From the NCBI GenBank assembly GCA_026393755.1, contig JAPKZO010000032.1, positions 1-64,000 on the forward strand: a stretch of 64,000 nucleotides of DNA. The letters run 5' to 3'. Below are positions 17,107-47,464 of the stretch, in pieces. Made by a program: the position numbers and the translations under genes. The DNA comes from Acidobacteriota bacterium (lineage in GTDB: Bacteria > Acidobacteriota > Vicinamibacteria > Vicinamibacterales > JAKQTR01). The notes under the pieces were generated by a model. That model was given only the letters and a program-made list of their open reading frames with translations. It had not been told where the DNA came from and did no database searches. Every line of letters starts with the position of its first letter. The stretch's first letter is position 1.

Positions 17107-19872
<2,766 letters not shown>

Positions 19873-21423: not shown

Positions 21424-21490
21424 CGCCGCATTTCCCTCGCGCTGAGCGTGATGCATCGGAAGAATTTGATCGCCCTCCGTCACTTTGTGC

Positions 21491-21518
21491 TTGACATCGT
21501 ATTTTTCTCACCCATAAT
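21491..21518 (+). promoter_or_regulatory. Strong sigma70-type promoter of the first 17-residue peptide gene
   Basis: A perfect TTGACA (21491-21496) is followed by a 16-bp AT-rich spacer and CATAAT (21513-21518). The expected leader is about 87 nt. It is one of the most AT-rich stretches in the window, which suggests high expression. Confidence 0.75.
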
Positions 21519-21611
21519 CTACATATTGTATGAGCCTGGATTGCTCAGCCCAGTGCTTGTGATCGTTCGAAGACGGTAACCAGCTGGGCAGCTACAATCC
21601 TAGGAGGACAA

Positions 21612-21665
21612 ATGGCGAAGAAGACTGCGAAGAAGGCCACCAAGAAGGCGGCCAAGAAGCGCTAA
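21612..21665 (+). CDS. 17-residue lysine-rich peptide, copy 1
   Basis: Encodes MAKKTAKKATKKAAKKR: four xKKx tetrads with eight Lys and one Arg. AGGAGG (21602-21607) lies 4 nt before the ATG, a strong promoter lies upstream and a textbook terminator follows 16 bp after the stop. The sequence resembles the Lys/Ala tails of histone H1-like bacterial proteins, so binding to DNA, RNA or another polyanion is a reasonable inference, not a demonstrated role. An identical peptide is encoded at 21773 with seven synonymous codon changes. Too short for routine gene callers. Confidence 0.8.
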   Translation: MAKKTAKKATKKAAKKR

Positions 21666-21681
21666 GCGCTTCACTCGATCA

Positions 21682-21707
21682 CGGGGGTGGCTTCACCCCC
21701 GTTTTTT
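21682..21707 (+). terminator. Rho-independent terminator after peptide gene 1
   Basis: CGGGGGTG (21682-21689) pairs with CACCCCCG (21694-21701) around a GCTT loop and is followed by six T. It ends the short transcript starting near 21525. Confidence 0.93.
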
Positions 21708-21772
21708 GCGTCCAACCTCCCGGCAGACGGGAGTTCCTGCTCACACGATAAACGCCGAAGGGGGGGATGAAG

Positions 21773-21826
21773 ATGGCGAAGAAGACCGCAAAGAAAGCGA
21801 CGAAGAAGGCCGCGAAGAAGCGCTAG
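21773..21826 (+). CDS. 17-residue lysine-rich peptide, copy 2
   Basis: Encodes the same MAKKTAKKATKKAAKKR as the gene at 21612. The codons differ at seven positions, all synonymous, and the stop is TAG instead of TAA. A purine run (GAAGGGGGGG) precedes the start; an in-frame ATG two codons earlier (21767) could add Met-Lys. No convincing promoter is seen between the first terminator and this gene, so it may rely on readthrough or an unrecognised promoter. A terminator follows 22 bp downstream. Confidence 0.78.
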   Translation: MAKKTAKKATKKAAKKR

Positions 21827-21848
21827 GCCTTGTTGAGTCGTGAACGCG

Positions 21849-21878
21849 AGGGGGCGGCAGTCGCCCCCTTTGTTTTTT
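21849..21878 (+). terminator. Rho-independent terminator after peptide gene 2
   Basis: AGGGGGCG (21849-21856) pairs with CGCCCCCT (21862-21869) around a 5-nt loop, followed by TTG and six T. It is independent in sequence from the first terminator, apart from the G-rich stem style. Confidence 0.9.
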
Positions 21879-21928
21879 CCGGCCGCATGATCTCAATGCA
21901 CATTCGCACGGCCGGGACCCGTCGTAGC

Positions 21929-22005: not shown

Positions 22006-24183
22006 TCATTTCACTGTCAGTTCGATCCCGTCCCACGTCTTCACGCGGCGGATGACGTCCCACTGCTGCAGCCGATCCACGCACTCCATGCCGGCAACGA
22101 CGTGACCAAACACGGTGTAGCGCCCATCCAGGTGCGGCTGCGGAGAGTGCGTGATGAAGAACTGGCTGCCACCGGTATCCGCCCAGTCGAGCGCCATGCC
22201 CACCGTGCCGCGCAGGAACGGGCGCTCGTTCAATTCGTCACGAATCGTGTAGCCCGGGCTTCCCTCGCCGTCGCCGCGCGGGTCGCCGTCCTGCACGACG
22301 AAGTTCGCGACCACGCGATGAATGGCCACACCTGAAAAGGCGCCACTGCGCGCCAGGGCGAGGAAGTTCGCCGCCGTCAGCGGGGCATCCAGCACAGCCA
22401 GTTCGATTTCGATCGTGCCCTTGTCGGTCTCGAGAAACACGTGAGGCGACACGGGCGGCGACACGAGCGACGGCGATGCGTAGTAATCGGTCGACGGCCC
22501 CGGAGCCGGGCGGATGGCCGCGCTGAGGTCGGAGGCCGGATCGAGATCGCGCGCGAGGGCGAGCGCCCTCACGCGCACGGCCCAGTCGCGGTCGCCGAGC
22601 GCTTGCTTCAACACCGGCATGACGGCGCCGGATCCGTACTTGGTGAGCGCGCCGAGTGCCGCCGTTCTCGCCTGGTACATGCCGTCGCCCAGGCCGGCGC
22701 GGTACGCCTCGGCCAGGGCCGCGTCCCCGCCCTGAAGCTTCATCTCCCCGATGGCGGTGGCCGCAGCCGCCCGGACCATCACATCCTCGTGCTTCAGCAG
22801 GCGAAGCAGGGTCGGTCCGAGATCGGGTGGATGCAACCTGGCGAGCGCCTCGACGACCGCAGGGATCACGCGCGCGTCCCGATCCCCGAGCATCACGGTC
22901 AGACGCGGCACAGCGACCGCGGGATCCAGCGTCGCGACGATCGACGCGAGAGCGGCGCGGACGCTCCAGTGCGGGTCGGCGTCGAGACTCGAGAGCACCA
23001 TGAGGAACGTGTCCGGATCGACCTGCCGCATCGCACGCAAGGCCGCCGCGCGCATCGAGGGCCAGGGATCTGCGGCCAGCTCGATCAGACGATCGATCGA
23101 GCCGCCACCGCCAAGCGCACCCAGCGCCGCAACGGTCTCGAGCCGGAGGTTGGGGTCGAGGAGGGGTGTCTGCAGCAGCCCTCGAATGACGGTTGCGCTT
23201 TCCGGCGCGCCCAACTGCCCGAGCGCCCGGATCGCCGCCACGGCGGCTCGAGGATCCTGCTGCCAGCCCTGGGCCCGCAAGGCGAGCGCGGCTACGGCCC
23301 GGCCGTCCTTAATGGTCTGCAAGCCTCGCGCGGCGAACGCGCGGGTCAGACTGCCGCTGCCGCCGAGCCACGTCATCAGCGCGGGCACGAATCGCTTGTC
23401 GTCGGTGCGCGACAACGCGTACGCGACCGGCCACCACCGCGCCCGAGGCTGTCCTGCCGCATCCAGCACGACCGACGCGAGGGCGTCGTAAGCCTTCAGC
23501 CTCGCCAGTGCGTAAATGCCCAACCGAAACGCGTCGACGCCCGGTAACTGCGGGTCAGTCAGGTCGTCCGGATCGAGCGTCGCCACCGAACTGGCCGCCA
23601 ACTGCCGGGCCGCCATGGCGGCAACGGCCGGCGCGGACGCGGCATCTCCGACGAGGCCCAGCGCCTCAGCGGCGCGACCCTGCACCAGCGGCGACGGGTC
23701 GCCCAGCGCCGTCCGGAGGGGTTCGATCGCGGCGCGCTGCCCGATCAGGCCGAGCGCAAACGCCGCCATCTGCCTGACCTCTGGCTCCGCATCGGAGGCC
23801 AGAATCTTCGCGAGCGGCGCGACGCCTTCCACGAGTCCGACGCGGCCGATCGCGAGCGCGGCGCGCCGTCGCACCCGTCCCTCACCGTCGCCGAGCAACC
23901 GCACCAGGTCTGGCGACGCGACAACCACCGGGGACGCAGCGATTGTGCGGCCAGCCTTGCGGCCGGTCGCGCGGGGGGGCGGTGCCGGGGCAGCCGGAGC
24001 GGGCGGCGGCGGATCGCGCAGGATCCGCTGATCTTCGAGCCTCAGCATCCACGCGAGTTTCTGTTCGTACGTCGGTGGTGCCAACGGCCCGGCCGGCTGC
24101 GCGGACGCGGGGACCGCGGCCATCGCCCACCATATCGCCACGGCGGCGACAGCGCCGATGTGACACCGGCGACGATCGCGCAC
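22006..24183 (-). CDS. Secreted HEAT-repeat protein fused to a cyclophilin-type peptidyl-prolyl isomerase
   Basis: Protein of about 725 aa if the GTG at 24183 is used; the frame stays open further upstream but that part is Arg-rich and does not look coding. A signal segment (AVAAVAIWWAMAAVPASAQ) is followed by a Pro/Ala linker. Many HEAT repeats span about 90-560 (for example DGEGRVRRRAALAIGRVG, EPEVRQMAAFALGLIG, DPSPLVQGRAAEALGLVG). The C-terminal 145 residues are a bacterial cyclophilin with FSGVAIHRVVANFVVQDGDP, GGSQFFITHSPQPHLDG and YTVFGHVVAGMECVD. It should act in the periplasm as a scaffolded prolyl isomerase/chaperone. The start codon is uncertain. Confidence 0.85.
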   Translation of the reverse strand: MRDRRRCHIGAVAAVAIWWAMAAVPASAQPAGPLAPPTYEQKLAWMLRLEDQRILRDPPPPAPAAPAPPPRATGRKAGRTIAASPVVVASPDLVRLLGDGEGRVRRRAALAIGRVGLVEGVAPLAKILASDAEPEVRQMAAFALGLIGQRAAIEPLRTALGDPSPLVQGRAAEALGLVGDAASAPAVAAMAARQLAASSVATLDPDDLTDPQLPGVDAFRLGIYALARLKAYDALASVVLDAAGQPRARWWPVAYALSRTDDKRFVPALMTWLGGSGSLTRAFAARGLQTIKDGRAVAALALRAQGWQQDPRAAVAAIRALGQLGAPESATVIRGLLQTPLLDPNLRLETVAALGALGGGGSIDRLIELAADPWPSMRAAALRAMRQVDPDTFLMVLSSLDADPHWSVRAALASIVATLDPAVAVPRLTVMLGDRDARVIPAVVEALARLHPPDLGPTLLRLLKHEDVMVRAAAATAIGEMKLQGGDAALAEAYRAGLGDGMYQARTAALGALTKYGSGAVMPVLKQALGDRDWAVRVRALALARDLDPASDLSAAIRPAPGPSTDYYASPSLVSPPVSPHVFLETDKGTIEIELAVLDAPLTAANFLALARSGAFSGVAIHRVVANFVVQDGDPRGDGEGSPGYTIRDELNERPFLRGTVGMALDWADTGGSQFFITHSPQPHLDGRYTVFGHVVAGMECVDRLQQWDVIRRVKTWDGIELTVK

Positions 24184-24368
24184 GGGCGCGCGGCCGCTAG
24201 CAGCCCGTGGTGGAAGTCGGTCGTCGCATCGAGACCGTCGATGCGCCCGGATCGCAAGGCGCGAAACGCGAGAATATCGGGAATATTCGAGCGTTGAGCA
24301 ACGCGGCGAGGCGGGATGCAGCGTCGGTCGAATGCAGACTGACTTCCACCACGGGCTGCTAGGGGCGT

Positions 24369-25478
24369 TCACAACCTGAACTCCACCCGGCGCAGCGTGG
24401 CCTGTTCGAGCCGGTCATCGACGACGTGGACGCCAGTCCCGGGACCATCGGGCACCTGGATCATCCCGTCAGGTCGCACTTCGATTCCGGGCTCGATCAA
24501 ATCGGGCTGGTAGTACCGCCGGCTGGCCGCCACGTCTCCCGGCAGCGAGAAGTTCGGCAAGGTCGACAGATGAAGGTTGTGGGCGCGCCCGATGCCGGCC
24601 TCGAGCATCCCGCCGTGCCAGACCGGCACGTGTCTCGCCGCACACAGGTCGTGGAGCCGGATCGACTCGGCGTGTCCGCCGACGCGTCCCGGCTTGATGT
24701 TGATGATGCGGCAGGCCTCGGCATCGAGTGCGTCGCGCCCGGCGCGGACCGAGTGGATCGATTCGTCCAGACAAATCGCGGTGGTCAGGTGCCGCTGGAG
24801 CGCGGCGTGATCCGCGATGTCGTCATAGTCGAGGGGCTGTTCGATCATCATCAGGTTGTACTGATCCAACCTGGCCAGGTGGCCGGCGTCTTCGAGACAA
24901 TAGGCGGCGTTGGCGTCCACCATCAGCGGGATCGGGCCGAAGCGATCGCGGATCATCGCCACAACTTCCACATCCCACCCCGGTTTCACCTTGATCTTGA
25001 TCCGGCGGTAGCCGTCGGCCAGTTCGGCAGCCACGCGCTCGGCCAGCTGTTCGAGCGAATCCTGGATGCCGATCGAGACGCCGGCGGCAATCTCGGTTCG
25101 AGTGCCTCCGAGCACCTCTCTCAGCGGCACCCCCTGCTGGCGTGCAAACAGATCCCACGAAGCCATTTCGATGGCGGCCTTGGCCATCTGATGGCCCCGC
25201 ACGCGGTGCATCGACGCGAAGACTTCCCGCGGATGCGCAAAGGGGACGCCCAGGACCAGCGGCACGAGGAACTCGCCGATGATCTGCCACGCGGTCTCGG
25301 TCGTTTCGGCGCTGTAGTACGGGTTGTCGTCAGCCACGCACTCGCCGTATCCGAACGCCCCTTCGCCATCGAGTCTCGTGACGAGGAACGTCCGGTCGTA
25401 GACCCGGCCGAAGCTGGTTTCGAAGAAACGTACCAGCGGCAGCCGTACCAGTCGCAGTTCAATGTGTTCGATTTTCAC
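24369..25478 (-). CDS. menC: Enolase-superfamily enzyme, o-succinylbenzoate synthase/N-acylamino acid racemase type
   Basis: Protein of 369 aa. It has the MLE/MenC subgroup fold: an N-terminal capping domain and a barrel with KIKVKPG (Lys-x-Lys catalytic pair near 162), metal ligands in LMVDANAAY, MIEQPLDYDD and CLDESIHS, and the second-side Lys in IINIKPGRVGG. Members make o-succinylbenzoate for menaquinone or racemise N-acylamino acids, and sequence alone does not separate the two. No other men gene is nearby, so the symbol is tentative. The GTG at 25478 is chosen because the frame has no ATG near the start of the conserved region. It is divergent from the kinase gene at 25539. Confidence 0.82.
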   Translation of the reverse strand: MKIEHIELRLVRLPLVRFFETSFGRVYDRTFLVTRLDGEGAFGYGECVADDNPYYSAETTETAWQIIGEFLVPLVLGVPFAHPREVFASMHRVRGHQMAKAAIEMASWDLFARQQGVPLREVLGGTRTEIAAGVSIGIQDSLEQLAERVAAELADGYRRIKIKVKPGWDVEVVAMIRDRFGPIPLMVDANAAYCLEDAGHLARLDQYNLMMIEQPLDYDDIADHAALQRHLTTAICLDESIHSVRAGRDALDAEACRIINIKPGRVGGHAESIRLHDLCAARHVPVWHGGMLEAGIGRAHNLHLSTLPNFSLPGDVAASRRYYQPDLIEPGIEVRPDGMIQVPDGPGTGVHVVDDRLEQATLRRVEFRL

Positions 25479-47335: not shown

Positions 47336-47381
47336 TCAACCTGGAGCCTGATGGTGACGGAGAACGGACGAGGCGGGATGC

Positions 47382-47455
47382 CGCGCTCCCTCCGCCGGTC
47401 TCAACCGGATCAGGTTCCAAGGGTGTATCTCAATCCCAGAGGGATACCCCTGACG
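47382..47455 (-). ncRNA. TPP riboswitch (THI element) of thiC
   Basis: Read on the minus strand it carries the conserved blocks in order: AGGGGTATCC, TGAGATACACCC, GGAACCTGATCCGG and ACCGGCGGAGGGA. These are the P2/P3 pyrimidine-sensor and P4/P5 diphosphate-sensor elements. The usual CTGAGA reads TTGAGA here. Binding of thiamin diphosphate would switch off thiC. Confidence 0.93.
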
Positions 47456-47464
47456 GCTATGGGC

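Follow-up and report, generated by a model that had tools for sequence, protein, structure and literature searches.

A conserved locus of tiny lysine-rich micro-ORFs behind a structured 5' leader in the Vicinamibacterales

The ribosomal protein bTHX (PF17070) is a very short basic peptide, like those described here, although the composition of the latter is nearly only K, A, G, T and R. Bacterial pseudoknot 5' leaders include preQ1-II, SAM-II and ribosomal protein leaders, and in these, as in the leader reported below, a hairpin loop pairs downstream near the ribosome binding site. The Chlamydia histone H1-like protein Hc2 (PF07382, NF038052) shares with our peptides a repetitive, basic, Lys/Ala-rich sequence and a length that varies with repeat number, but at 165-237 aa (PMC2848022) it is far longer. 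The KPAA-repeat C-terminal domains of AlgP and PhaF from Pseudomonas, for which in vitro DNA binding and association with polyphosphate granules have been reported (PMC9239181), likewise form a Lys-rich, H1-like tail, but that tail is carried on a folded N-terminal domain, whereas here a tail-like peptide without the KPAA repeat is the whole protein. A partial search of the literature returned no prior description of either these peptides or their leader.

The window that we analysed is a stretch of 64,000 nucleotides, part of contig 32 of an Acidobacteriota genome (G000), and carries two adjacent micro-ORFs, A and B (Table 1). The initial annotation had described them as tandem genes for an identical peptide with silent codon changes only, and this holds in full: 7 of the 17 codons differ, all seven changes are silent with none replacing a residue, and the stop codons differ too. 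Seven silent changes out of seven would have a probability of ~1e-5 under random substitution, and NG86 counting gives 7 synonymous differences over 10.7 sites and 0 nonsynonymous over 37.3 sites. The 17-mer contains eight Lys and one Arg, for a net charge of about +9. Each copy also has, as had been proposed, its own Shine-Dalgarno sequence (AGGAGG for A, the run AAGGGGGGG for B) and a hairpin with a T run after it; an extra in-frame ATG 5' of the B start (MKMAKK...), overlapping the Shine-Dalgarno sequence of B, is a minor caveat. Because the window holds 3 terminator-like hairpins with a T run vs 1.1 expected, the weight of these hairpins comes mainly from their conservation.

The near-consensus promoter previously assigned to the first copy, TTGACA-16-CATAAT at 21491-21518, agrees with the consensus at 11 of 12 sigma-70 positions (shuffled sequences give a mean of 0.1 such sites) and is near-invariant among relatives, and the sequence CTACATCT, close to the predicted transcript start, is conserved as well. 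When the window is compared with genome G001, the alignment is good between TCACTTTGTGC and the T run that follows B and poor on either side, and the hairpins, Shine-Dalgarno sequences and ORFs are its best-conserved parts. No promoter of its own is recognisable for B; since the transcription unit has only one promoter-like site, B is probably reached by read-through past the terminator of A. Elsewhere in the window, a near-palindrome, AAGGGGCCAGGCCCCTTT, occurs twice, 36 bases apart (18065-18119), inside an ORF resembling tRNA-guanine transglycosylase, where it is read as EKGARPL repeats; the pair has the look of an in-frame insertion of a repeat element.

Table 1. Features of the micro-ORF locus and of the leader copy at ftsZ (positions in the window unless a contig is named)
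Feature	Position	Strand	Details
Promoter	21480..21530	+	TTTGTGCTTGACA-16-CATAATCTACAT; spacer and first transcribed region also conserved
Structured 5' leader	21519..21611	+	Covariance model R1 match G000:C32:21518-21614, sole match in genome
Leader helix P1	21536..21553 (21536-21539 with 21550-21553)	+	87% of cells paired
Pseudoknot helix	21543-21549 with 21583-21589	+	GCTCAGC with GCTGGGC; 89.5% of cells paired; two-sided changes at three pairs
Shine-Dalgarno of A	21602..21607	+	AGGAGG, read from sequence; kept in relatives
Micro-ORF A	21612..21665	+	Encodes MAKKTAKKATKKAAKKR; stop TAA
Terminator of A	21681..21707	+	ACGGGGGTGGCTTCACCCCCGT and T run; hairpin 21681-21702; conserved in G001
Shine-Dalgarno of B	21758..21767	+	Extended, G-rich, AAGGGGGGGA; relatives have AAGGGGGGATA-type
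Micro-ORF B	21773..21826	+	Encodes MAKKTAKKATKKAAKKR; stop TAG
Terminator of B	21848..21880	+	GAGGGGGCGGCAGTCGCCCCCTT and T run; hairpin 21848-21870; conserved in G001
Convergent neighbour	22006..24372	-	HEAT-repeat / cyclophilin-type peptidyl-prolyl isomerase; ORF, named from its sequence
ftsZ leader copy	G035:C2:92998-93091		Also in G052, G517, G518

The only other genome of the genus encodes the exact peptide twice, and the 3 further family members sampled encode it once or twice each; near matches are present in other families. Two further routes were followed. One located the locus independently of the peptide, using the convergent isomerase gene, itself outside the system, as a synteny anchor in order-level relatives and reading the adjacent DNA. 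In 54 of the 56 genomes inspected at the orthologous locus, 1-3 K-rich micro-ORFs lie beside the same convergent cyclophilin gene (two in 30 genomes, one in 23, three in 1); the two empty loci are those of G022 and G049, and every other inspected locus keeps at least one copy. Copy A is degraded in G024, G034, G051 and G059, where its ATG is changed to ACG, and absent in other lineages, while B is degraded in the cultured isolate Luteitalea sp. TBR-22 (G019); genomes with A only and with B only both occur. In G012 (L070) the block of promoter, A and B has flipped with respect to its surroundings but is intact, and in G002 (L095 / L005) a 52-residue KKAAVKKAAPKK repeat protein ending in GCKAC stands in place of copy B.

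The other route relied on the promoter and the earliest transcribed bases alone, which were scanned against a genome collection of 84,980 species. This returned 89 contigs, mostly labelled Acidobacteria or Vicinamibacterales, with micro-ORFs downstream in 89/89; the sets from the two routes share genomes and are not independent species samples. Metagenome-assembled genomes labelled Cyanobacteria, Woeseiaceae, Acidimicrobiia and Bifidobacterium breve (L105, L107, L124, L132) also carry this order-specific locus and are probably mislabelled or contaminated assemblies. Within the class, the promoter pattern is found in 118 of 162 genomes of the order, always once each, and in 0 of 31 genomes from other orders; a covariance model of the leader matches 123 of the 162, one per genome apart from family f14, and none of the same 31. 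Four phylum-wide pattern matches outside the order were not lysine-rich and were set aside as chance, and a plasmid search with the locus of G007 gave no match. The initial annotation had made its proposal depend on the peptide and its terminators being conserved in close relatives; both are, and on this count the proposal was not refuted.

The locus is not universal in the order: one group of f8 genomes is without promoter, leader and peptide, so that it is dispensable there. These three elements were not found in the f8 genera g19, g31, g38, g265 and g267, high-quality genomes included, and the locus may have been lost there, or never gained if these genera branch first. Looser KKR patterns found no match in genomes without the locus, and a search with the 65-aa variant returned nothing elsewhere in G000 or in the locus-less genomes, though low-complexity queries are insensitive, and this one also missed the known 52-aa protein of G002.

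The 143 ORFs on the 89 promoter-found contigs define a family of simple construction, with a MAK start in 141, a KKR end in 127 and a composition of 49% K and 27% A in which acidic residues are almost absent and lysine is encoded by 1263 AAG vs 149 AAA codons. Most peptides are 14-20 aa long, the full range being 14-65 (14-60 within the 143-ORF set, 65 in G011), and of the 139 ORFs that could be tested, 122 have a terminator-like hairpin and T run directly downstream. Variants with Gly pairs, with Ala/Thr or with 65 residues retain only charge, MAKK start and KKR end, and the Gly-rich forms (MAKKGGKKKGGKKR) make it less likely that a helix or an exact binding surface is needed.

The protein-level constraint that had been claimed from the A/B pair extends to the relatives, where the proposed check on selection shows silent changes in excess in orthologues and paralogues alike: pN/pS is 0.20 within A, 0.09 within B and 0.09 between A and B of one genome, values pooled from non-independent pairwise counts and thus good for direction but imprecise as magnitudes. 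This substitution pattern indicates that the micro-ORF peptides are under purifying selection. The two peptides are identical in 16 of 55 two-copy genomes vs 1.4% of between-genome A/B pairs, and the identical pairs within a genome always differ in 3-8 codons. One explanation attributes this identity to gene conversion and shared descent and not to selection for a particular peptide, and the mean A/B similarity of 0.75 within genomes vs 0.41 when shuffled is what conversion would yield. We nevertheless consider it rather unlikely: among identical peptides the fraction of differing codons is 0.36 for A/B within a genome, close to the 0.34 between genomes and above the 0.11 for A-A and 0.17 for B-B comparisons, and pN/pS is low among A copies and among B copies too. 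The within-genome codon difference equals that between genomes and so gives no support to recent conversion; by the same codon differences A and B seem to be old lines that have evolved separately while their peptides agree lineage by lineage. Their likeness could be kept either by selection or by conversions older than each clade.

Upstream of A, the conserved sequence continues into a leader. Across 45 leaders, a helix P1 (GGTGG/CCACC) and a pseudoknot, in which the loop GCTCAGC pairs with GCTGAGC shortly before the Shine-Dalgarno sequence, leave 88.5% of cells paired. Two-sided changes number 13 vs 3.3 in shuffles (0/500), a control inflated by sequence kinship and applied to a structure proposed by hand from the same sequences. 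When the structure is slid along the alignment, paired cells fall to 28-46%, and the pseudoknot pairing score of 750 exceeds all 200 between-genome partner swaps (mean 699, maximum 729). Some genomes use other pairs in the pseudoknot, such as GCTCAGG/CCTGAGC (L127) and TCAATC/GATTGA (L136). Nested folding with RNAalifold missed the pseudoknot, giving -0.16 kcal/mol and five near-invariant pairs. Neither gathering thresholds nor loose E-values produced a credible Rfam match for the leader region; in another part of the window (47369-47461, minus strand) a TPP riboswitch aptamer (RF00059) scores 62 bits.

In genus g25, promoter and leader occur a second time, in the interval from ftsA to ftsZ, and this copy stops immediately ahead of the ftsZ start codon, which suggests that promoter and leader work as a portable expression module. 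A weak second leader match also occurs in G519 (E = 0.008, in sequence with Ns), and no co-oriented gene was seen nearby. The leader differs from the known pseudoknot leaders both in having no Rfam match and in having ftsZ, in one genus, as the only other type of downstream gene.

We propose to read the locus as an expression cassette that is specific to the order, holds a fixed place on the chromosome and makes a tiny disordered polycation. The strong conserved promoter would give a transcript with a 5' hairpin and pseudoknot followed by one or two micro-ORFs; every micro-ORF has a good ribosome site, and most are closed by a terminator of their own. The peptide would be selected for charge, MAKK start and KKR end and not for exact sequence or length, and it would most likely act as an abundant, counter-ion-like ligand of a polyanion, whether nucleoid DNA, RNA or ribosome, or polyphosphate, working like a free histone H1, Hc2 or AlgP tail. 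As an overall explanation, a cassette for an abundant disordered polycation that binds a polyanion is the reading that we moderately favour. Judging from composition, binding is most plausibly by charge; because low-complexity basic peptides resemble many unrelated ones, composition says little about the target, and we would not favour DNA over RNA or polyphosphate.

The likeness to H1 tails suggested in the initial annotation is one of composition. The 17-mers are too short for a profile scan, and only the long variants match Hc2 profiles, with best scores of 21.5 bits against a cut-off of 40 (Pfam) and 19.4 against 135 (NCBIfam); the 52- and 65-aa variants reach E-values of about 1e-3 to 1e-4 with such profiles, below gathering cut-offs. 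Because these scores fall far below the cut-offs, we say that the peptide may work like Hc2 or H1 tails and claim no family membership.

The chief alternative for the target would be the ribosome, with the peptide serving, in the manner of bTHX or bS22, as a small basic protein of the ribosome or a factor associated with it. Its size and charge, the MAK start and KKR end, the strong promoter and the terminators would all suit such a role, the leader could be an autoregulatory one of the ribosomal-protein type, and Thx itself is missing from the relatives, its profile matching 0 of 20 genomes, own genome included, while the Thermus control was found. However, few bacteria have Thx in any case (1 of 14 control genomes), which leaves its absence here with little weight; the peptides have no sequence relation to it, and neither a length range of 14-65 aa nor a group of genomes without the locus is what one would usually see for a ribosomal protein that occupies a defined site. 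We regard this assignment as unlikely.

It is also conceivable, if distinctly improbable, that the structured leader is itself the main product, a regulatory RNA, with the micro-ORFs in the subordinate role that a dual-function sRNA would give them. Conservation of the leader equals or exceeds that of the ORFs, its pseudoknot covaries, one genus has a copy of it at ftsZ, and it is still present in those genomes of f5, f10 and f11 whose ORF A is missing or begins with ACG in place of ATG. Nonetheless, a K-rich ORF follows the promoter in 89/89 matches, the pN/pS of 0.09-0.20 would not be expected of a by-product, and at ftsZ the leader again precedes a coding gene, which fits a 5' UTR better than an independent sRNA. 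A short Lys-rich ORF closely followed by a terminator, with A upstream of B, is also the classical layout of attenuation, where Lys codons would respond to charged tRNA-Lys and so govern the terminator and the gene beyond it. We reject this as highly improbable: downstream of the last copy there is no gene in the same orientation, its neighbour being convergent; moreover, genomes with A only and B only exist, B is the only gene that A could control, and A is absent where B is single. That the ORFs are chance products of low-complexity DNA, as their very short and repetitive sequences might suggest, is refuted with near certainty by order-wide conservation of start, end, Shine-Dalgarno sequence, terminators and synteny combined with silent-site turnover.

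Returning to the polycation cassette, a more specific and quite tentative version, which we put forward as a possibility, would have the order carry a genetically encoded micro-histone that resembles a polyamine and may be the shortest of all dedicated H1-type proteins. In this version the cassette is duplicated, a previously undescribed pseudoknot leader would set its output, perhaps with feedback by the peptide, and the leader would have been recruited to control ftsZ in one lineage.

Proteins of fewer than 20 residues have rarely been shown to be under selection, and order-wide turnover at silent sites shows such selection here without experiment. The Vicinamibacterales are abundant in soil and have few cultured members, and these micro-ORFs may rank among the most conserved lineage-specific genes of the order. 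Peptides of 14-65 residues at a single locus, together with copy losses and a group of genomes without the locus, amount to a natural series on what is required of a polycation, in which the f8 genera would be possible natural knockouts. The leader, for its part, may be a new regulatory RNA, one that has been put to a second, independent use at ftsZ.
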